The position numbers were made by a program, and so were the translations under genes. Positions 3,252 to 14,240 of a stretch of DNA of 64,000 bases are shown here, piece after piece (positions within the stretch are counted from its first letter, which is position 1; every line of letters starts with the position of its first letter). Origin of the DNA: Arthrobacter silviterrae (GTDB lineage Bacteria; Actinomycetota; Actinomycetes; Actinomycetales; Micrococcaceae); assembly GCF_011045165.1 (NCBI RefSeq), contig NZ_JAAKZI010000007.1:62001-126000 (forward strand). Reading direction: 5' to 3'. The notes beneath the pieces were generated by a model. That model saw only the letters and a program-made list of their open reading frames with translations, was not told the DNA's origin and ran no database searches.

Positions 3252-4346
3252 GTGGAGCGCACAGCCCTGTGGCGCCCGGCCTCGGGTGTGGCGGCGCCGA
3301 AGTCCGTGGAGACCGTGGATGATTCCCTCACGGCAGACCAGGCATACCGCTTGGCCGTGCAGGGCCGGGCCATGCTGTGGACAGGGGACTACCACAACGC
3401 CCGCCAGCTGCTGTCGGCCCTGGCCCGGCGGCTGCTGGACGGCACCACCGGGCGGAAGAAGCACGACGGCGGCGGCGTCGCGGAAGAGTTCTACCGGCAC
3501 CGGCAGGCCCGCTCCCAGCGTGCGCGGATTCTCGGGCTCCTGCTGGTCCCGCTCGAGGCCGGCCCCGCCGTGGCGCTGCGCCGCGCACCGGATGTTGCGG
3601 CCGCCTGGCTCGCGGCGTCCGGACCCGTGGAGGCGGCCGCCGTCGCGCCGCTGCAGGACGTGCTCGGAGCCATTGGGGCTCAGGAATGGCGCCGGAAGGG
3701 GCTCCGCGTTGAGGCACTGGACGCCGTCATCCACCCGCACTATGGCACTTTTGCCCCCATCCGGAGCGAGTACCTGGACCTCGTGGCACAGGCGGAGCTG
3801 CCTTCCACTGAACTGGCCTTTGACATCGGAACGGGGACCGGCGTGCTGGCGGCCATCCTGGCCCGGCGCGGCGTAAGGCGCGTCGTTGCCACGGACAGCG
3901 AGCCCCGTGCCATTGCCTGTGCCGAGGAAAATCTGGCGCTGCTTGGCCTCTCAGCCGTGGTTGAACCGGTGCTCGGCGACATGTTTCCGGCCGGCCGGGC
4001 GCCCCTGGCGGTCTGCAACCCGCCCTGGCTTCCCGGCACGGCCCATACGCTGCTGGACAATGCCGTCTACGATCCCAAAAGCCGCATGCTCCGGGCCTTC
4101 CTCAACGGCCTGGCCGCGCACCTGGAACCGGGCGGGGAGGGCTGGCTCATCATCTCCGACCTGGCCGAGCACCTGGGCCTGCGCACCAGGGAGCAGCTCC
4201 TCGGCTGGATCGCAGGGGGCGGACTGGAGGTGCTTGGCAGGCTGGACACGCCGGCGCAGCACCCCCGCTCCATGGACCGCGCCGATCCCTTCTTTGAGGC
4301 CCGTTCGCGGGAAGTGACGTCGCTGTGGAAACTCGGCGTGAAGTAG
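3252..4346 (+). CDS. Class I SAM-dependent methyltransferase (HemK/RsmC-like fold)
   Basis: The protein has 364 residues from GTG 3252. The N-terminal ~170 residues are of unknown function. The second half is a Rossmann methyltransferase with the SAM-binding loop DIGTGTGVLAAIL, an acidic ATDSEP ribose contact, and an NPPW catalytic motif. NPPY/NPPW motifs are typical of enzymes that methylate amide or exocyclic nitrogens, as in HemK/PrmC and RsmC. The target here (a protein glutamine or an RNA base) cannot be read from the sequence. GTG 3252 is the first ATG, GTG or TTG after an in-frame stop inside ddl, so an earlier start would need CTG 3189. The gene converges with the lipoprotein gene, 3 bp apart. 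Confidence 0.8.
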   Translation: MERTALWRPASGVAAPKSVETVDDSLTADQAYRLAVQGRAMLWTGDYHNARQLLSALARRLLDGTTGRKKHDGGGVAEEFYRHRQARSQRARILGLLLVPLEAGPAVALRRAPDVAAAWLAASGPVEAAAVAPLQDVLGAIGAQEWRRKGLRVEALDAVIHPHYGTFAPIRSEYLDLVAQAELPSTELAFDIGTGTGVLAAILARRGVRRVVATDSEPRAIACAEENLALLGLSAVVEPVLGDMFPAGRAPLAVCNPPWLPGTAHTLLDNAVYDPKSRMLRAFLNGLAAHLEPGGEGWLIISDLAEHLGLRTREQLLGWIAGGGLEVLGRLDTPAQHPRSMDRADPFFEARSREVTSLWKLGVK

Positions 4347-4349
4347 CGC

Positions 4350-4898
4350 CTATCCCTTCGCGGGGGCGGTGCTTGTTGGTGCGGTGCCTGTCGGCGCGGT
4401 GCTTGCCGCTGAGGGCGTCGTACTCGGGACCACGTCGCCGGGTCCCACGCAGCTGCGGACCTGTGGCAGCTTGGACACGGCACTGGACAATTGGGCCAGC
4501 ACGGTGCGGTCCGGAGTCTTTTTAGGGTCCAGCAGCACCTGGACGGCCGGATCACGGCCGTAGCTGGTCAGCGTCCAGACGGGGTCGCCCTGCTGGAGCA
4601 CCCAGTCCACGCCGTTGACCGTGGCACACGGATCGGTGGTCGGCCCGAGGGGTGGCACGCCGCACCGCAGGATGATCTGGGAGGGATTGCCCCAGGCGGC
4701 CGTGGCCTGGCTGGAGGTGGTGCGGCGCGCGGCGTCCGCCAGGGAATCGGGCAGGGCCACCATCATGGGTGCGCAGGCAGGATTGTTGGAGTCCTTGGCC
4801 GCGGACACCTCCACGGACGGGGCGCAGCCGGTCAGCGCGACCAGGGCGCCGACGGCAAGAGGCACAGCAATCCGCCAGGACAGGGAATTCAAAGGCAT
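4350..4898 (-). CDS. DUF3515-type secreted lipoprotein
   Basis: This 182-residue protein has a signal peptide (residues about 1-23) ending in a lipobox LTGC, so it should be lipidated at Cys24 and anchored outside the cytoplasmic membrane. The mature part includes PDSLADAARR and GNPSQIILRCGV and keeps several cysteines, as in DUF3515 proteins, a family of unknown role common in actinobacteria. The tail is a Pro/Thr/Ser/Ala low-complexity stretch. In related genomes a gene of this kind sits between ddl and thiL. Here about 10 kb of extra genes separates it from thiL. Confidence 0.75.
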   Translation of the reverse strand: MPLNSLSWRIAVPLAVGALVALTGCAPSVEVSAAKDSNNPACAPMMVALPDSLADAARRTTSSQATAAWGNPSQIILRCGVPPLGPTTDPCATVNGVDWVLQQGDPVWTLTSYGRDPAVQVLLDPKKTPDRTVLAQLSSAVSKLPQVRSCVGPGDVVPSTTPSAASTAPTGTAPTSTAPAKG

Positions 4899-5021
4899 GG
4901 ACCAAGCCTAGTCCGTGAAACTGGGAACACCGCCACCCAAGATCACCGCTTGAATACCGCGCAACTGCCCAGCACGGAGGAAGCGGAGGGAAAGCCATTC
5001 AACCGTTCTAACCGGGGTAAC

Positions 5022-6209
5022 TCAGTGTCCTGTCCGCAAGGGCCCGGACGCCCATTGGTCAATCAGGCCGTTGTGCTGGCCCAGCGTGGGGGCGGGGGAG
5101 GGTGCCACCGAACCGGTCAGGCGCAGCGGCGAGGCCAGGGTCCGGAAGCCGTCCGACTCCGTGGCCACCGTGCCTCGGTACTCCGAATGCTCGCTGTCCA
5201 GCGCCTCGTTCACGCTGTACACCTTGGACGCGGGCACCTGGTGGGCGGACATGAGCTCGAGGGCCTCGTCGTCGGTGAATTGGCTGAGGGCCTCCTCCAG
5301 TGCGGCCCGGAACTCCACCGGGAACTCGTTGCGGCGGGTTTGCTCGCTGAAGCGCTGGTCCTCCAGCCACTCGGGCCGGTTCAGCGCCTCGGTCAGGCGG
5401 GGGAACAGGCGGTCTCCGGCGATGGCAATCGCGATCGAGCCGCGCCCGGTCTGGTACGTGCTGAACGGCGTGGACATGGCGTGGTCGTTGCCGCACGCTA
5501 CCGGCTCCTCGCCGTGCAGGGCGCGCATGCCCACGGATTCCAGCACGGAGATCAGGCTATCCAGCATGGCAACGTCAATGTGCTGGCCCCGGCCCGTGGT
5601 GTGCCTCTCGTTGATGGCGGCCAGCGCGGCGATGGCCCCGTACAGGCCCGGAATGACGTCTCCGATGCTGATGCCGATGCGCGTCGGGTCGCCGCCGCGC
5701 AGGCCGGTGATCGACATCAGCCCGCTCATGGCCTGGGCGATGAGGTCGTACGCGGGCGCCTTCTGCAACGGCCCGTCCTGGCCAAAACCGGAAATGCTGA
5801 CGATGATCAGGCGCGGGTTCTCCTCCAGGAGTCGTGCTGGGGACAGGCCCAGGCGTTCCATGACGCCCGGACGGAAGTTCTCGATCACCACGTCGGAGCG
5901 CCGGGCGAGATCCAGCAGGCGGCCGCGTTCGGCTTGGTCCTTAAGGTCCATGGTGACGCCGAACTTGCTGCGGTTGAAGAGCCGGTAGTAGGCGGACTCG
6001 CCGTTATACCAGGGGCCGAAGTGGCGGGAGTCGTCGCCGTCGGGACTCTCCACCTTGATGACCTCGGCTCCCAGGTCGGCCAGGATCATGGCACAGAACG
6101 GGCCTGCCAGGACGCGGGAGAGATCCAGGACGCGTAGGCCCTCAAGCGAGCCAGGGCGCCCCAGTCCCAGGGCGGGGGAGTGGGGGTCTGTCGCGGAGGG
6201 GGAGGGCAT
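5022..6209 (-). CDS. Class III CoA-transferase (CaiB/BaiF family)
   Basis: This 395-residue protein moves CoA between carboxylic acids in the cytoplasm. Family marks are LRVLDLSRVLAGPFCAMILA, ADLGAEVIKVE, PGDDSRHFGP-like residues, the RSDVVIENFRPGVMERLGL segment, and IDVAMLDS in the region of the catalytic aspartate. Within the family it resembles acyl-CoA:carboxylate transferases such as formyl-CoA:oxalate, CaiB or glutarate enzymes; the acid cannot be fixed from sequence. An AAAGGA ribosome site lies 8 bases before ATG 6209. It is divergent from the iclR gene, with the palindrome at 6314-6327 centred about 112 bp upstream. The same palindrome precedes an acyl-CoA dehydrogenase, so the two probably act together. 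Confidence 0.85.
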   Translation of the reverse strand: MPSPSATDPHSPALGLGRPGSLEGLRVLDLSRVLAGPFCAMILADLGAEVIKVESPDGDDSRHFGPWYNGESAYYRLFNRSKFGVTMDLKDQAERGRLLDLARRSDVVIENFRPGVMERLGLSPARLLEENPRLIIVSISGFGQDGPLQKAPAYDLIAQAMSGLMSITGLRGGDPTRIGISIGDVIPGLYGAIAALAAINERHTTGRGQHIDVAMLDSLISVLESVGMRALHGEEPVACGNDHAMSTPFSTYQTGRGSIAIAIAGDRLFPRLTEALNRPEWLEDQRFSEQTRRNEFPVEFRAALEEALSQFTDDEALELMSAHQVPASKVYSVNEALDSEHSEYRGTVATESDGFRTLASPLRLTGSVAPSPAPTLGQHNGLIDQWASGPLRTGH

Positions 6210-6313
6210 GGTAGCGGTCCTTTAAGTAAGTGGCGGCCCGGCCGTCCGGGAGGGCTTACCCACTATCCGACCACCGAAACATGGGTCGCGGCACTTTACG
6301 TCCCGGCGAAGTA

Positions 6314-6327
6314 TCTGTGATCACAGA
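6314..6327. promoter_or_regulatory. Candidate IclR operator, site 1
   Basis: TCTGTGATCACAGA is a perfect 14-bp palindrome in the 142-bp gap between the divergent CoA-transferase and iclR genes. The same 14 bases recur exactly at 10997-11010, and a partly degenerate copy is at 12447-12460. IclR proteins often bind palindromes of this length near their own gene. The site is about 25 bp before the iclR ATG and about 105 bp before the CoA-transferase ATG, which suits autorepression plus activation or repression of the catabolic gene. Binding by this particular IclR is inferred. Confidence 0.72.
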
Positions 6328-6351
6328 CAAACGGCGCTGTAGCATGGTGTG

Positions 6352-7194
6352 ATGAACTCGCCCCAGCTGCCGGCGCAGGTCCCGGCCGCCAAGAACGTCC
6401 TGTCCGTGCTGCGCTACGTGGCAGCCCAGGCCGGCCCGGTGGGTGCAGCCGCCATTGCGCGCGACGTGGACCTGCCCCGTTCCACCACCTACCACCTGTT
6501 GGCGGCGCTGGTGGAAGACGGCTTCGTGGTTCACCTGCCGGAGGAGCGCAAGTACGCGCTGGGCGTGACCGCCCACGAGCTGGGCACGGGCTACTCGCGG
6601 CAGGCACCGCTGCAGCGCATCGCCCGCTTCCCGATTGCGCAGCTGGTGGCCCGCACCAGGCGCACTGCGCATCTGGCCGTCATGCACGGACGCGAGGTTA
6701 TCTATGTGATCGAGGAGCGTGCCAAGCGCCAAAGCGAACTGGTGACCGATGCTGGAGTGCGCCTCCCTGCGCACCTCACCGCCAGCGGACGGGCAATGCT
6801 GGCGTCCATGCCGGCGGCACAGCTGGCGGCGCTCTACCCGGGGCCGGAGGCGTTCCCCACGCGGTACGAGAACGGGGTCCATTCGGTGGAGGCGCTGAAC
6901 GAGCTGCTGGCCCGCATCCGCGAGCGTGGATTTTCGTGGGAACAGGACGAGGTGACGGACGGCTTTTCGAGCCTGGCCGTGCCCGTGCTGGACCGCAGCG
7001 GCTACGCGTTAGCCAGCGTGACGCTGACGGTGGCCAACCGGCCGACGCTGTCCACGGCGGCCGCCGCTCGCCATGCCGCGGAAGGCACGGTGCCGGAGCG
7101 CACCGTGCAGCTGGAAGACCTCGCCAGTCAGTGGCTGCCCGAGGTCAAGCGCTGTGCTGCGGAGATTTCCCGGAGGCTGCGGCCGAGCGGATAG
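6352..7194 (+). CDS. IclR-family transcriptional regulator
   Basis: This 280-residue cytoplasmic regulator has an N-terminal winged helix-turn-helix (AAIARDVDLPRSTTYHLLAAL, roughly residues 32-52) followed by the wing FVVHLPEERKYALG. The C-terminal IclR effector domain includes LPAHLTASGRAMLA and RERGFSWEQDEVTDGFSSLAV, which form the ligand pocket in this family. ATG 6352 is preferred; GTG 6349 directly before it is also possible, and neither has a clear Shine-Dalgarno. The perfect palindrome 25 bp upstream suggests autoregulation. Neighbouring targets sharing the palindrome are the CoA-transferase, the NCS1 permease, the acyl-CoA dehydrogenase and perhaps hutU. The effector is unknown. Confidence 0.9.
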   Translation: MNSPQLPAQVPAAKNVLSVLRYVAAQAGPVGAAAIARDVDLPRSTTYHLLAALVEDGFVVHLPEERKYALGVTAHELGTGYSRQAPLQRIARFPIAQLVARTRRTAHLAVMHGREVIYVIEERAKRQSELVTDAGVRLPAHLTASGRAMLASMPAAQLAALYPGPEAFPTRYENGVHSVEALNELLARIRERGFSWEQDEVTDGFSSLAVPVLDRSGYALASVTLTVANRPTLSTAAAARHAAEGTVPERTVQLEDLASQWLPEVKRCAAEISRRLRPSG

Positions 7195-7348
7195 AGTTTT
7201 TGGTGCACATGGTTTGTGTATGTCATCGGCAGATTCCGCGGCAGATGCGTGACATGCCGTCATTGGCCCGCGGCCGCTAGGTAGTGTGGCGATTACACCA
7301 CCCGCAGCGGCAGCCCGGCCGCGACCCTGGCCACGGAGGATTCCCTCC

Positions 7349-8717
7349 ATGACGGTTGCCAGCATCCAGGCCACTGCCCTTGAAGAACTGGGGGCCGCGC
7401 CAGGCGCCAAGGTCAGCACGGACTCCGAAGTTCTCGCGTCCCGCGGCCACGACAGGTCCCACCTGCCTGGGAGCCGCCCCTGGCAGTGGTGCGGTGCTCC
7501 GGCACCGCAGACGTGTCCGCAGCCCTGCGGATCTGCCACCGCCACAGCATACCCGTGGTGCCGATCGCAGCAGACACCGGCCTGGAGGGCGGCGCCAACG
7601 GCTCCGCGGGGACTGTCTGCCTGGACCTCTCCGGCATGGACAGGATCCTGCGGATCGGGGCGAAGGACTTCGACGCCACGGTGCAGTGCGGCGCCATGAA
7701 AAGCGCCCTCAATGCCGAGCTTGCCGCGCACGCGCTGGCCTTCCCCGTGGGGTCCGGCGTGGATGCCGGGGTGGGCGGCATGGCCTCCACGGGGCCAATG
7801 TCAGCACGGCGGTGCGCTACGGCACCATGAAGGAAAACGTGCTGGACCTGACGGCGGTCCCGGGCGCCGGAACCTTAATCACCGCAGTAGGCCCCTCGCG
7901 CAAGTCGGCGGCAGGCTACGACGTCACTCACCTCTTTGTCAGTGCCGTTGGAATGCTGGATATACTGACGGAGGTGACCCTGCGTGTCTACGAGATTCCG
8001 GAGGCAACGGCCGTGCCAATCTGTTCCTTCCCCGCGCTGGGGGACTGCACGGCTGTGGTCCAGGCCACCCTGGAACGCGGCGTCCCCATATCCCGGGTTG
8101 AGCTGCTGGACAGCGTCACGGTGGATTTAGGGAACCGCTATACCGGCTTGGGTTTGCCCGTCATGCCGACGCTCATGTTTGAATTTGAAGGCTCCCCGTC
8201 CAGCCTTGCCTAGCACGGCGCCGCCGTCCGCAGTCTCGCTGAAGTGCACGACGGCGTGGCTGGGACTATGCCGACACCCCCGAACGCATCGGCCGGATCT
8301 GGCGCGCCCGGCACGACGTCCTTCCCCCCTACGCCGCACAGGTTCCCGGACCCAGCACCTGGTCAACCGCTGTGTGTGCCCACCTCGCAGCTGACCAAGT
8401 GCATTGCCCTGACCCAGGAAGACACCGAAGTCCACGGCGTAATGGCTCCCATTGTGGGCCACGTGGGCGACGGCAACTTCCACCTGGCGTTCGTGCTGCC
8501 GCCGGGCGACACTGCGGGGGCCGCCGTCGACGCGAGGTTGGTAGAGCGGGCCCTTGCCATGGGCGGGACCTCCGCCGGCGAAAACGGGATGGGGCTGGGC
8601 AAGGTGGCCTCTCTTGCCAAGGAACACGCCTCGGCGCTGCCCGTCATGGCAGCGATCAAGAACGCGCTGGATCCCCGGGGAATTCTCAACCCCGGCAACG
8701 TGCTGGCCCTGCCCTAA
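7349..8717 (+). pseudogene. FAD-linked oxidase (GlcD / D-lactate dehydrogenase type), multiply frameshifted
   Basis: The remains of an FAD-binding PCMH-type oxidase are spread over all three forward frames. Frame 2 opens at ATG 7349. Homology moves to frame 1 near 7464 (RCSGTADVSAALRICHRH, then FPVGSGVDAGVGGMASTG) and to frame 3 near 7797 (TAVRYGTMKENVLDLTAVPG). It hits a stop at 8211-8213, continues in frame 2 near 8270 (PERIGRIWRARHDV), and returns to frame 3 in a TGTGTGTG run near 8371. The end (APIVGHVGDGNFHLAF, then DPRGILNPGN) is the typical C-terminus of 2-hydroxyacid oxidases. The span also looks short between 8190 and 8270. Several independent lesions make a working enzyme very unlikely. 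Confidence 0.88.
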
Positions 8718-8730
8718 TCGCGGGTGCTCA

Positions 8731-8776
8731 AAAAGCCGGGGCCGGCCCAGTGTGGACTGTGCCGGCCCCGGCTTTT
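8731..8776. terminator. Bidirectional rho-independent terminator
   Basis: A 16-base inverted repeat has arms at 8731-8746 and 8761-8776, a GC-rich core (GCCGGGGCCGGC) and a 14-base loop. It is flanked by an A run on the left and a T run on the right, so it can end transcription in both directions. It lies exactly between the decayed FAD oxidase (plus) and the decayed aminotransferase (minus). Confidence 0.85.
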
Positions 8777-8797
8777 GTGTTCTTCAGGCTCGAGCGG

Positions 8798-9388
8798 TTA
8801 GCGACCTTGGCCGGCGGCCAGCCATGCGTCCACGCCGCGAAGGACGGCCGCCTCTGCCTCCCGCGAGCCGACCGTGACGCGCACGCCCTCGCCCGCAAAG
8901 CAACGCACGCTCACGCCCTCGGCGAGACAGGCAGCCTCCAGGGAACCGGAGCCGCTGCCCACCGGCAGCCACAGGAAATTGGCTCCGCTGTGCGGCACAT
9001 CCAGCCCGCGCAATGCGAGTTCCGCGGAAAGCGCCGTGCGGACCAGGATGGGGTAGGCCTCATAGTTGCGCCAGGCAAACACCACTTCCGTTGCCGGACC
9101 CGTGAACGCCGCCAGCAGCTGCTGGAGCACGGCGAGCGAGCCGGCCCCCGCAACGGGCTGCGCCGGGTCCACGGCCAGACTGCTGGCCAGGGCGGCAATC
9201 AGGGGATCCCCCTGCAGCGTGGGGTATTGCTGGCACTGCCGGGCCGCCCGGTCCACGGCCGCAAGGACCGCGGCCGACGGCGGAAGGAAGGACTCGTTGG
9301 ACGACGCCCGCCACCGGGGCTGCTCCGTCCCGCCCGCCTTGGAATAGACGGGGGGACGGCCACGACCGCACGGGGTTCCGGCGTTTAG
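8798..9388 (-). pseudogene. HisC/Pat-like PLP aminotransferase with a large internal deletion
   Basis: The frame is open and ends at TAA 8798-8800, but it contains only the two ends of a fold-type I aminotransferase. The N-terminal part has RASSNESFLPPSAAVLAAV and the GAGSLAVLQQLLAAF cofactor segment. Right after AWRNYEAYPILV (near 9040) it jumps to ALRGLDVPHSGANFLWLPVG, which belongs to the last ~80 residues of histidinol-phosphate or aromatic aminotransferases. About 200 residues, including the PLP-binding lysine, are missing, so it cannot be catalytic. No good start codon or ribosome site is evident at the 5' end, and a REP-like element sits just upstream at 9397-9420. Confidence 0.82.
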
Positions 9389-9396
9389 CGGTCCTC

Positions 9397-9420
9397 GGTC
9401 TCGACAGGCTCGACCACCGG
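9397..9420. repeat. REP-like palindromic repeat (short form)
   Basis: The sequence GGTCTCGACAGGCTCGACC followed by ACCGG is imperfectly palindromic (GGTCgag / ctcGACC logic). It is the same family, in opposite orientation, as the three repeats inside recG at 18801-18901, whose longest copy ends GCGCGTCGAGACC. It lies between the 3' end of the NCS1 permease gene and the broken 5' end of the aminotransferase pseudogene. Short dispersed palindromes of this type occur in many Arthrobacter genomes. Confidence 0.6.
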
Positions 9421-9440
9421 ACGTGCCGCCGTTTGCGAGA

Positions 9441-10904
9441 TCATGCCGACGGGGAATTGACGGGTTCGGCTGCCGCGGTCTCCTCGATCGGGTAGACCAT
9501 CTCCGCGGGAGGGCGCTGGAATTTCCGGGCAACCGGGTAGTAGACCACGGCCGTGACCACCAGGCCCACCAGCCACGAGATGTCCGCGCCGCCCAGCAAC
9601 GGGGTGATGGGCCCGGTGTACATGGACTGTGCGAGGAATGGGACCTGGACGACCACGCCGAGCAGGTAGGTCAGCAGGGCCGGCACATTCCAGGCACCGT
9701 AGCGGCCCTTGGGGTCGTAGAGCGCTGGGACGTCGACCTTCTCCTTCGACACCAGCCAGAAGTCGACCAGGTTGATGGAGCTCCACGGGATGAAGACCAT
9801 CAGGAGCAGCAGCACAAAGTTCTTGAAGTTGGAGATGAAGTCCGCCGAGGCGGCAATGGCGATGATGACGGAAACGGCAATGAAGCCGATCACGTAGGCG
9901 AAGCGCACCCACGGGGCGAACCGCAACTGGCGGGTGAACGCGCTGACAGAAGTCAGGATGGTCATGTAGCCACCGTATGCGTTAAGCGTGTTGACGGTAA
10001 GCTTGCCCACTACAACGACCAGGTACAGCAGGATGGCAATGGCGCCGCCGCCTGACAGCTCGCCCACAAAGGCCACCTGCCCGTCCAGGAACTCGTGGCC
10101 CTTGGGCATGGCGATCGCGGCAAACAGTGCGCCGAGCGTCATGGACCACTGCGCGCCCAGCACGGAGCCGGAGAAGCAGGAAAGGAAGGTCCGGCCCGCC
10201 GGGGTGTTCGCCGGAAGGTAACGGGAGTAGTCCGCCACGTAAGGCCCGTACGTTAGCTGCCAGCCGGCGCTGAGGGAGATCGCCAGGAGGAACGTGGGGA
10301 AGGCGAAGCCGCCCACCCCCAGGACGGCAACGACGTCGTGCTTAAGGAACAGCTGGACGGCCAGGTAGCTGAAGCCGAGGATGCCCACGATCGTGGAGAT
10401 GCGGCCAAGGGCGTGGATGTACTTGTAGCCCAGCGTGGCCACGAGCACCGTCAGGGCGCCGAAGATGATGACGCCCACGGCCGGGTGGCCCGTGGGGATG
10501 ATCTGCCCCACGGCCTGCCCGGCCAGAACGGCGCCGGTGGCCGCGAAGCCCAGGTACATGATGATGACCAGGACGAGCGGGATGACGGCGCCGAACACGC
10601 CGAACTGGGCCCGGCTGGAGATCATCTGCGGCATGCCGAGCTTGGGTCCCTGCGCGGCGTGCAGGGCCATGACCGTGCCGCCGAGGATGTTGCCGATGAA
10701 CAGCCCGATGATGCCCCAGAAAGCGTCCGAACCAAAGATCACGGCCAGGGCGCCGGTAACGATCGCCGTGATTTGCATGTTGGCGCCGAACCACAGCGTG
10801 AACTGGCCAAACGGCTTGCCGTGGCGCTCACCGTGCGGCACGAAATCAATGGAGCGGCGTTCTATTACCGGCCCTGACTTCTTTACTGTTTCAATCCTTG
10901 ACAT
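9441..10904 (-). CDS. NCS1-family nucleobase/allantoin/hydantoin-type permease
   Basis: This 487-residue integral membrane protein has about 12 predicted helices and belongs to the purine-cytosine permease / NCS1 group. It carries the family's N-terminal block GERHGKPFGQFTLWFGANMQ, followed by helices such as AIVTGALAVIFGSDAFWGII. Members import nucleobases, hydantoins, allantoin, vitamins or related small ring compounds with H+ or Na+. The start is ATG 10904, because GGAGGAACCGC lies directly before it; an open frame continuing to 10934 lacks such a site. It is divergent from the acyl-CoA dehydrogenase gene, and both share the palindrome at 10997-11010. Its cargo is probably the substrate of this catabolic block; the identity is not visible. 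Confidence 0.85.
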   Translation of the reverse strand: MSRIETVKKSGPVIERRSIDFVPHGERHGKPFGQFTLWFGANMQITAIVTGALAVIFGSDAFWGIIGLFIGNILGGTVMALHAAQGPKLGMPQMISSRAQFGVFGAVIPLVLVIIMYLGFAATGAVLAGQAVGQIIPTGHPAVGVIIFGALTVLVATLGYKYIHALGRISTIVGILGFSYLAVQLFLKHDVVAVLGVGGFAFPTFLLAISLSAGWQLTYGPYVADYSRYLPANTPAGRTFLSCFSGSVLGAQWSMTLGALFAAIAMPKGHEFLDGQVAFVGELSGGGAIAILLYLVVVVGKLTVNTLNAYGGYMTILTSVSAFTRQLRFAPWVRFAYVIGFIAVSVIIAIAASADFISNFKNFVLLLLMVFIPWSSINLVDFWLVSKEKVDVPALYDPKGRYGAWNVPALLTYLLGVVVQVPFLAQSMYTGPITPLLGGADISWLVGLVVTAVVYYPVARKFQRPPAEMVYPIEETAAAEPVNSPSA

Positions 10905-10996
10905 GCGGTTCCTCCGATGGAATTTGTGGCGCAAAAGCTAATCCATCAATCTGAGCACGGCGGGCCGAGTCGCGGTGATCCAGGCCACTAATCTAG

Positions 10997-11010
10997 TCTG
11001 TGATCACAGA
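10997..11010. promoter_or_regulatory. Candidate IclR operator, site 2
   Basis: This is an exact second copy of the 14-bp palindrome TCTGTGATCACAGA; the match continues rightward through the bases CAAA. It lies in the gap between the divergent NCS1 permease and acyl-CoA dehydrogenase genes, centred about 100 bp from the permease ATG and about 110 bp from the dehydrogenase ATG. The distance to the dehydrogenase nearly equals that between site 1 and the CoA-transferase. Together with site 1 it argues that these genes form one regulon. Confidence 0.75.
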
Positions 11011-11113
11011 CAAAGCGGCAAATGGTGCCGCCCGGTCCATTTTGCCGGCGCGCGGCGGCTATGTTCGATGGACACCCCTTCCTCTCCCTTTTCTGTTCCG
11101 AAGGAGCACTCCC

Positions 11114-12292
11114 ATGAGCGAAACCCGTGCGCTGCCCTATGTTGACGGCGACTTCTTCTTCTTTGAAAGCCTGCTGCCCGCTGGCGAGCTGGCCCGCCTG
11201 AACGAGATCCGGGACTGGATGGAGGCCAATGTGCGCCCCATCTCCCGCGACTACTGGAACCGCAGCGAATTCCCCAAGCACCTGATCCCGGAGGTTGCCA
11301 AGCTGGACATGATCAGCCCGGTTCGCCGTCAGGGACACTCGCACCTGTTGGCCGGCATGGTCACCGCCGCCATCCACCGCGTTGACGCCTCCTTCGGCAC
11401 CTTCTTCAGCGGCCACGACGGCCTGTTCACCGGTTCCATCGAGCTGCTGGGCTCCGAGGAGCAGAAGGCTGCGTGGCTCCCCGACATCTACGCGCTGCGC
11501 AAGACCGGCGTGTTTGCCATCACCGAGCCGCTGGCCGGCTCCGACGTGGCGGGCGGAACACAGACCACCGCCGAGCGGCGCGGTTATTCGTGGGTCCTCA
11601 ACGGCCAGAAGCGGTGGATCGGCAATTCCACATTCTCCGACTACGTGATTGTCTGGGCCAAGGACGTGGCGGATGGCCAGGTCAAGGGCTTCCTGGTGGA
11701 AACCACCACGCCCGGCTTCAAGGCGACCCTGATTGAGAACCGGATCGCACTGCGCGCGGTCCAGAACGCCGACATAGTCCTGAAGGACGTCGCGGTGCCC
11801 CACTTCAACAAGCTGGCCGGGGCCAACAGCTTCCGTGACACCAACAAGGTGCTCAAGACCACCCGTGCCACGGTGGGCTGGCAGGCCGTGGGCATGCAGC
11901 TGGCAGCCTTCGACGTGGCCCGCAAGTACGCGGTGGAGCGCCACCAGTTCGGCAAGCCGATCGCCAGCTTCCAGCTGATCCAGGAGCAGCTCGTCACGAT
12001 GCTCTCCAACGCCCAGGCGTCGATGGGCATGATGGTGCGGCTGGCGCAGATGGAGGACGCCGGGACCACGCGCAACGAGCACTCCGCGCTGGCCAAGGCA
12101 TTCGTGACCAAGAGCATGCGCGAGACCGTGGCGCTGGGACGCTCCATCCTGGGCGGCAACGGCGTGTCGGTGGACTACGAGATGGCGAAAATCTTCTGCG
12201 ACGCCGAGGCCATCTACACCTACGAGGGCACCTACGAGATCAACACCCTCGTGGCCGGGCGCGCCATCACGGGGATCGCTGCGTTCGTGTAA
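11114..12292 (+). CDS. Acyl-CoA dehydrogenase, glutaryl-CoA dehydrogenase-like
   Basis: This 392-residue FAD enzyme oxidises an acyl-CoA at the alpha-beta bond. Marks include FAITEPLAGSDVAGG and NGQKRWIGNSTFSDY in the middle domain, and the C-terminal GRSILGGNGVSVDYEMAK then YTYEGTYEINTLVAGRAITG. That last block, with the glutamate base in YEGT, is closest to glutaryl-CoA dehydrogenases, but the acyl group cannot be fixed from sequence alone. The start is ATG 11114, behind GAAGGAGCACTCCC. A longer open frame begins at 11000 but would run through the operator. A class III CoA-transferase under the same palindrome probably supplies its CoA thioester. Confidence 0.88.
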   Translation: MSETRALPYVDGDFFFFESLLPAGELARLNEIRDWMEANVRPISRDYWNRSEFPKHLIPEVAKLDMISPVRRQGHSHLLAGMVTAAIHRVDASFGTFFSGHDGLFTGSIELLGSEEQKAAWLPDIYALRKTGVFAITEPLAGSDVAGGTQTTAERRGYSWVLNGQKRWIGNSTFSDYVIVWAKDVADGQVKGFLVETTTPGFKATLIENRIALRAVQNADIVLKDVAVPHFNKLAGANSFRDTNKVLKTTRATVGWQAVGMQLAAFDVARKYAVERHQFGKPIASFQLIQEQLVTMLSNAQASMGMMVRLAQMEDAGTTRNEHSALAKAFVTKSMRETVALGRSILGGNGVSVDYEMAKIFCDAEAIYTYEGTYEINTLVAGRAITGIAAFV

Positions 12293-12560
12293 CGGTGCCT
12301 CCGTGAAACAGCACGGCCGCAGTGACTGAGAAGCCCGTGGCACGGGACATCGCCACCCCGGCGAGGTTGAACAGTGCCGCTCCGCCTTCGACTGACGGCC
12401 GCCCAAGGAGGGATCCCGGCATCGTGCATCAACGGAGGGGCCATTGTCTTGAATCACAGACACCATGGTTGCCGCGGACCTAGGAATGCGGCGTCTGTGG
12501 GGGTTGGATGGAACTAAAGGAAACCCCACCGAACCCTATCGCTGACTAAAGGAACACATC
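12293..12560 (+). promoter_or_regulatory. hutU upstream region with degenerate IclR site 3 at 12447-12460
   Basis: This 268-bp gap holds no convincing gene. At 12447-12460 lies TCTTGAATCACAGA. It keeps the full right half of the palindrome found at sites 1 and 2 (ATCACAGACA including flank) and the outer TCT of the left half, with three changes between. Its centre is about 108 bp before the hutU ATG, matching the spacing at the CoA-transferase (112) and dehydrogenase (110). A ribosome site AAAGGAACACATC precedes hutU. Membership of hutU in the IclR regulon is inferred from this half-conserved site. Confidence 0.55.

Positions 12561-14240
<1,680 letters not shown>

Follow-up and report, generated by a model that had tools for sequence, protein, structure and literature searches.

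A 14-bp palindrome found between genes of the soil bacterium Arthrobacter silviterrae would, according to our analysis, be the operator of a HutR-type regulator, i.e., an IclR-family protein associated with histidine utilization (hut). It lies in a 64,000-nucleotide stretch (contig NZ_JAAKZI010000007.1, positions 62,001 to 126,000), hereafter referred to as the window. The window appears to carry an accessory branch of the histidine-utilization regulon, consisting of a HutR-lineage iclR gene with its operators, the sole hutU gene of the genome, and genes for a permease, a family III coenzyme A (CoA) transferase and an acyl-CoA dehydrogenase. We put at about 0.8 the probability that a HutR-type regulon has here been extended by the CoA-transferase/dehydrogenase pair, which would feed urocanate to the urocanate hydratase HutU. 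That a HutR-type regulon includes the window genes at all is very likely, judging from the sites and the regulator family.

Proposed operators and promoters in the window, the genome and the genus

The initial annotation placed exact copies of TCTGTGATCACAGA at 6314-6327 and at 10997-11010, and both are indeed present. A third site, at 12447-12460 upstream of hutU, reads TCTTGAATCACAGA; it differs from TCTGTGATCACAGA at three positions, with the right half unchanged. The palindrome extends beyond this 14-bp core, as operators 2 and 3 have complementary outer arms (Table 1). Within the window only, the pattern is weak evidence: three matches with up to three mismatches were reached in 9 of 100 shuffles, which were not required to contain two exact copies. 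The evidence that the site exceeds chance comes from outside the window.

In the complete 4.29-Mb genome, TCTGNNATNNCAGA occurs at six places, compared with one for a reversed control, and all six adjoin hut-type genes. Two of them are in the window; one is by hutG on contig C19 (TIGR01227, 277 bits); another, on C1, separates hutI (TIGR01224, 303 bits) from a divergent LysE-type gene; and the remaining two, on C63, precede a second window-type iclR copy and a broken hutH-like gene. In the case of hutI and hutG, the longest open reading frame (ORF) begins at or before the site, and the real starts are presumed to lie downstream of it. The 16-bp pattern with at most one mismatch is found at nine places, namely these six, the hutU site, a site at an ABC transporter on C14, and one inside an ORF. 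Eight of the nine precede hut-type genes or the polar amino-acid ABC transporter; the other, a second place on C14 (77373), is inside an unrelated ORF and was set aside as chance. With up to two mismatches, there are 65 places versus 32 for the control. The intact hutH is also on C19, beside another HutR-type IclR gene, hutR (C19:201051-201776). The sites of hutH and hutR each deviate from the 16-bp pattern at two positions; relative to the 14-bp core, the hutH site has two mismatches, the hutR site one, and the hutU, hutI and hutG sites at most one. Summed over 23 genomes of the genus, TCTGNNATNNCAGA occurs at 80 places, versus 10 for the control.

The regulon that had been proposed is supported in part; a local one is too narrow a reading, since the same site stands by hutI, hutG, the second IclR copy, the hutH-like gene and the amino-acid ABC transporter.

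The sites are conserved at orthologous positions. The CoA-transferase/iclR site was found with at most one mismatch in 10 of 10 orthologous upstream regions and the permease/dehydrogenase site in 9 of 10, the tenth (L086) having two mismatches. Upstream of hutU, the site is present with at most one core mismatch in 21 of 22 regions, and with two in the remaining one (L085). For 231 GC-matched control palindromes, the mean counts in these three sets were 0.03, 0.06 and 0.07, with maxima of 2, 2 and 3. The hutU counts omit genome G010 on account of its fragmented close hutU copies, and a Glutamicibacter locus (L138) is included in the 11-locus promoter comparison below but not in the 10-locus conservation test. 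That the palindromes arose by chance, as the window shuffles taken by themselves would allow, is thus a negligible prospect in view of the conservation relative to control palindromes and of the gene specificity in the genome.

The hutU site is also found, with at most one core mismatch, in all 10 genus genomes that lack a window-type IclR (L114-L123). Operator 3 is therefore an old hutU operator. The third site had been described as an altered copy of the palindrome; it is instead the ordinary hutU operator of the genus.

A different identity of the palindrome, that of a CRP/GlxR-type site under global carbon control, is suggested by its TGTGA and TCACA halves and by GTGA-N6-TCAC-like elements adjoining operator 2. 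In the CRP consensus, TGTGA-N6-TCACA, the halves are six bases apart, whereas those of the palindrome abut. Moreover, it is the outer GTCTG and CAGAC that are conserved, while the inner GA/TC vary across hut promoters, and the sites in the genome adjoin hut-type genes. A CRP-type operator was rejected on account of the spacing and the conserved letters, and we consider it very improbable.

The GTGA-N6-TCAC-like element in the window, which resembles the CRP/GlxR consensus, is at 10975-10988, on the permease side of operator 2 and about 22 bp from its center. It has a single mismatch; matches of this quality are frequent, with 29 in the window versus 20 expected. In relatives, a GTGATC half is found on the dehydrogenase side of operator 2. 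Both are about 30 bp upstream of -10-like boxes.

The distances from site center to start codon agree with those in the initial annotation for all four genes considered: 111.5 bp for the CoA-transferase (ATG at 6209, minus strand), 110.5 bp for the acyl-CoA dehydrogenase (ATG at 11114), 107.5 bp for hutU (ATG at 12561) and 99.5 bp for the permease (ATG at 10904, minus strand). The iclR ATG (6352) likewise begins 25 bases past the end of operator 1. The near constancy of the four distances had been read as the signature of a shared regulator, but it does not extend to the relatives, in which the distance from the hutU site to the start codon ranges from 107.5 to 143.5 bp. What the relatives conserve is the distance to a -10-like box, and start-codon spacing was rejected as a signature for this reason.

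Each promoter keeps its own, nearly fixed distance between operator and -10-like box. For hutU, a CCTAGGA-type box with at most one mismatch is 30 bp from the operator center in 17 of 22 genomes. For iclR, the best box is at 21-22 bp in 9 of 11 loci, and in those nine the ATG follows 6 bases after it. The permease box is at 52-53 bp in 10 of 11 loci, and the dehydrogenase box at 59-61 bp in 11 of 11. At the CoA-transferase promoter, where the box is at about 53 bp, a conserved block begins 40-41 bp from the operator center in 8 of 11 loci. The similar start-codon distances in the window therefore reflect, for the most part, leaders that happen to be alike in length. With the -10 box centered near -10, the operator would cover the -35 region at hutU (center near -40) and at iclR (center near -32), and would be centered near -62 to -70 at the remaining three promoters.

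Table 1. Genes, operators and putative promoter elements, with coordinates in the window.
Feature	Coordinates	Strand	Description
CoA-transferase, family III, 395 aa	5022..6209	-	PF02515, 391 bits; passes no NCBIfam cut-off
CoA-transferase -10-like box (putative)	6265..6270	-	TCGGAT in its own direction; 53 bp from operator center; position read by hand
Operator 1	6314..6327		TCTGTGATCACAGA; between CoA-transferase and iclR; 0 core mismatches in 10 of 10 genomes with the CoA-transferase
iclR -10 box (putative)	6340..6345	+	TAGCAT; 6 bases before ATG; center 22 bp from operator center
IclR-family regulator, HutR lineage (predicted), 280 aa from ATG	6352..7194	+	PF09339, PF01614; tree
GlcD-like FAD-linked oxidase remnant	7376..8714	+	Broken over three frames; tblastn with intact relative L079:9321-10838
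HisC-like aminotransferase remnant	8801..9352	-	About residues 131-282 gone; tblastn with intact relative L079:6180-7268
NCS1-type permease, 487 aa	9441..10904	-	PF02133, 157 bits; under NCBIfam cut-offs
Permease -10-like box (putative)	10949..10954	-	TCAGAT; 52 bp from operator center
Operator 2	10996..11011		GTCTGTGATCACAGAC; perfect 16-bp palindrome; between permease and acyl-CoA dehydrogenase
Acyl-CoA dehydrogenase -10 box (putative)	11060..11065	+	TATGTT; 59 bp from operator center
Acyl-CoA dehydrogenase, 392 aa	11114..12292	+	PF00441, PF02770, PF02771
Operator 3 (hutU)	12445..12462	+	TGTCTTGAATCACAGACA; outer arms palindromic and kept across the genus
hutU -10 box (putative)	12481..12486	+	TAGGAA; 30 bp from operator center
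hutU, urocanate hydratase, 559 aa	12561..14240	+	TIGR01228, 912 bits (cut-off 375)

Other loci with these sites or with hut-like genes deserve mention. The second window-IclR copy on C63 (L007:9076-12562) is 88% identical over residues 1-188 and lacks about 60 residues of the effector domain; an exact palindrome precedes it, and a major facilitator superfamily (MFS) transporter and the hutH-like gene, which is frameshifted, adjoin it. On C14 (73228; L251:4379-7244), the polar amino-acid ABC transporter operon has a HutR-type site with one mismatch. This transporter may perhaps serve histidine uptake within the regulon; in Leucobacter, such a transporter with a site stands beside a hutH-like gene. 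Finally, genomes G009 and G010 contain a hut-like operon (L092, L093) whose hutH, hutU and hutI share just 34-45% identity with those usually found; it may serve a different imidazole compound.

The regulator

The window IclR has a helix-turn-helix domain (PF09339, 49.7 bits) and an effector domain (PF01614, 81.5 bits), both above cut-off. A comparative paper gives the HutR motif of Corynebacterium resistens as GTCTGWWATWCCAGAC (PMC8222616); operator 2 agrees with it at 13 of 16 positions, the outer arms and the central AT matching and three inner positions differing. The C. resistens genome paper reports hutR, a gene of the IclR family, in every corynebacterial hut cluster that it compared (PMC3350403).

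In a tree of 55 IclR proteins, the window IclR and its orthologs group with hut-cluster IclRs from other families in the order, separately from Arthrobacter's own HutR; the fork that unites these 23 rows has support of 97/99. The three rows from Corynebacterium branch separately. Several deep forks of this tree are weak, long branches were flagged, and the C. resistens HutR is outside it. The window IclR would best be named a HutR-lineage paralog. It occurs at 83% identity or more in all 10 genomes with the CoA-transferase (83-96% in the nine others).

The shared regulator suggested by the initial annotation is supported by the conservation of the sites and their likeness to the HutR motif. 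That this regulator is the window IclR, and that it regulates itself, is suggested by the adjacency of its gene, its HutR-lineage phylogeny and the site upstream of a conserved -10-like box. Alternatively, the operators may serve the HutR-type protein whose gene adjoins hutH on C19, with the window IclR being a passenger or a redundant copy of minor importance. This would fit the conserved hutU sites in the 10 genomes without a window-type IclR, as well as the site with at most one mismatch that 19 of 20 relatives (L094-L113) have upstream of hutR. However, the conservation of the window IclR in the nine other CoA-transferase genomes, its own conserved site and promoter, and the position of window-type iclR genes directly upstream of hutU in G004 and G017 all speak against a passenger, and we consider this alternative unlikely. 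The sites of the two HutR-type proteins fit one pattern, so that the sequence does not assign a given site to either.

Our proposed mechanism is that the window IclR binds the operators and senses an imidazole acid. At iclR and hutU, whose operators overlap the -35 position, it would block RNA polymerase; at the promoters of the CoA-transferase, the permease and the dehydrogenase, it would act from an upstream position (about -60 to -70).

The CoA-transferase/dehydrogenase pair and its proposed substrate

None of the transferase, IclR, permease and dehydrogenase passes an NCBIfam cut-off, so no model names their substrates. Both enzymes have the active-site residues of their families. Asp155 of the CoA-transferase, in PAYDLIAQAMSG, aligns with the Asp of YfdE and is invariant in 10 of 10 sequences; we take this residue to be the catalytic one of family III CoA-transferases. 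In the alignment, the acyl-CoA dehydrogenase carries the Glu of YEGT, presumably its catalytic residue. Its closest solved structure is peroxisomal acyl-CoA oxidase 4. For hutU, there is a single match in the genome.

A transferase and a dehydrogenase beside HutU would fit what the conversion of the saturated acid imidazolepropionate to urocanate needs, namely that CoA be put on, a double bond introduced, and CoA passed on. In the pathway we propose, the permease would import imidazolepropionate, the CoA-transferase would load CoA onto it, and the dehydrogenase would yield urocanoyl-CoA. The transferase would then move the CoA to the next imidazolepropionate, freeing urocanate, which HutU, HutI and HutG would carry to glutamate. 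From the gene content, we consider imidazolepropionate the substrate of the pair at slightly better than even odds.

The pair could instead belong to a glutarate pathway, i.e., a glutaryl-CoA dehydrogenase and a succinate-glutarate CoA-transferase, tied to hut via C5 acids. The succinate-glutarate CoA-transferase model does match the CoA-transferase at 253 bits, and several glutaryl-CoA dehydrogenases are among the closest solved structures of the dehydrogenase. Nevertheless, this score (252.7 bits) is far below the model's cut-off of 750, and the best structure match is acyl-CoA oxidase 4, not a glutaryl-CoA dehydrogenase. In addition, the dehydrogenase has Gly in place of the Arg in 1sir, 3sf6 and 2eba, which are called glutaryl-CoA dehydrogenases (VDASFGTFF versus VDSGYRSAM in 1sir); this Arg presumably holds the distal carboxylate. 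We rejected the glutarate pathway because the pocket Arg is absent and the family score is low, and it appears quite unlikely.

Among 58 genomes (own, genus, family and order), the CoA-transferase reaches at least 85% identity in 10, which all belong to the genus, and the dehydrogenase at least 89% in the same 10; other genus genomes have only paralogs of up to 70%. The pair is thus present in an identical set of 10 of 23 genus genomes, always with the window-type IclR. When 394 genomes of the class were searched for the CoA-transferase with a threshold of E up to 1e-110, only the own genome matched, which is uninformative on wider linkage. From a CoA-transferase scan of named genomes, 80 of 182 loci were kept, i.e., the 13 nearest (L134-L146) and 67 more distant ones. 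In the flanks of the 13 nearest loci, the dehydrogenase is present in 12 and a hut-type gene in 8.

The arrangement of these loci varies. Glutamicibacter (L138) has hutI, hutU, the dehydrogenase, the permease, an IclR, the transferase and three sites. In Corynebacterium (L144), hutG, a HutR-type site, the dehydrogenase, the transferase, a transporter and a HutR-like IclR are followed by hutH and hutU. Two Leucobacter loci (L142, L143) have a hutH-like gene (36-41% identity) cut by the locus edge, a HutR-like IclR, an ABC transporter preceded by a site, a GlcD-like oxidase, the dehydrogenase and the transferase; in L142, an FMN-dependent dehydrogenase and an aminotransferase follow behind a site with one mismatch. 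The hutU and hutI genes of this Leucobacter are located elsewhere. C. pseudodiphtheriticum and C. propinquum carry the pair and hutU on different contigs, yet the pair keeps a site with one mismatch. In a metagenome-assembled genome of Rhodobacteraceae, the hut run reads hutI-hutH-transferase-dehydrogenase-hutU, and the acyl-CoA dehydrogenase there is a different one. A hutU match was found in all 8 named genomes examined, in one as fragments only; in that genome, one fragment is at the end of a contig that apparently bears the dehydrogenase.

Two further observations concern these loci. In L143, between the ABC transporter and the FAD oxidase (3748-6208), there is a large ORF that by eye resembles a cytochrome P450, and another with 2Fe-2S and FAD-binding reductase domains. 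In L134, from a record named Sporosarcina beigongshangi REN13, the CoA-transferase, IclR, permease and dehydrogenase are 84-91% identical to those of the window, and the record is probably misnamed.

Some relatives have an intact HisC-like aminotransferase gene behind the permease and an intact GlcD-like FAD oxidase gene behind iclR. The two remnants in the window appear to be the decay of this side branch. In the relatives, the hydroxyacid oxidase is GlcD-like, and in a Leucobacter also FMN-dependent; from the gene content, the oxidase and the HisC-like aminotransferase would fit a conversion of imidazolelactate to histidine. A broader proposal is a gene system for the aerobic use of imidazole three-carbon acids under a duplicated HutR-type regulator, in which the pair would convert imidazolepropionate to urocanate with CoA recycling, and the relatives' enzymes imidazolelactate to histidine. 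We would give this proposal an even chance.

Several observations weigh against a HutR-type regulon extended by a urocanate-feeding pair. With regard to the regulon, three inner positions of operator 2 (3 of 16) depart from the published HutR motif; the gene specificity of the site is established in the own genome, and the 80 places in the genus have not all been located relative to genes; the -10 boxes are deduced from conservation alone, and 5 of 22 hutU regions have no -10-like box at 30 bp with at most one mismatch; and the C19 HutR-type protein could bind the same sites. A window-type IclR also occurs without the pair in G004 (84%), G017 (75%) and, more distantly, G010 (67%). With regard to the pair, the fetched flanks in C. 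pseudodiphtheriticum and C. propinquum gave no hut match; only 1 of the 67 distant CoA-transferase loci (L151) has a hut match (E up to 1e-15) in its flanks; and hut genes are near 2 of 5 alphaproteobacterial pairs. Two of the three alphaproteobacterial pairs without nearby hut genes adjoin an ORF that by eye resembles an aldehyde dehydrogenase.

Relation to known systems

A literature search, outside which most subscription journals lie, found no gene for imidazolepropionate breakdown, no second HutR-lineage regulator with a CoA-dependent feeder branch, and no paper joining histidine utilization, IclR and Arthrobacter. Control of the HutR type is already known; a second HutR-lineage regulator with such a feeder branch appears new, in that it was not found in this literature. 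The window offers a clean case of a two-copy HutR-type regulator, with an operator pattern that reaches a new branch and a testable geometry at five promoters. If the substrate reading is true, it also provides candidate genes for the breakdown of imidazole propionate, a by-product of histidine and of gut microbial origin that published abstracts tie to type 2 diabetes. Passages of a 2026 preprint deal with imidazole propionate production and histidine use.

The closest regulatory precedent is HutR of C. resistens. The two systems share the IclR family, the motif parts GTCTG, central AT and CAGAC, and hut genes as targets. They differ in that Arthrobacter has two full HutR-type genes and a third copy with an internal deletion, in that its hut genes are spread over several contigs, and in that its sites also precede the genes for the CoA-transferase, the acyl-CoA dehydrogenase and the NCS1 permease.

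For the enzymes, the same family pair, i.e., a family III CoA-transferase and an enzyme of the acyl-CoA dehydrogenase fold, is found in the CaiB/CaiA carnitine system, in which one CoA is cycled between saturated and unsaturated acids. The proposed direction here is oxidative, in contrast, and the acid would be imidazolepropionate; the carnitine models score low, at 117 bits for L-carnitine CoA-transferase (cut-off 413) and 118 bits for crotonobetainyl-CoA dehydrogenase (cut-off 540). Breakdown of the same acids is reportedly the subject of a 1973 paper, whose title names imidazolylpropionate degradation by Pseudomonas testosteroni. Lastly, urocanate reductase, UrdA, acts on the same two compounds, urocanate and imidazole propionate. 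UrdA makes imidazole propionate, whereas the proposed pair would remove it.

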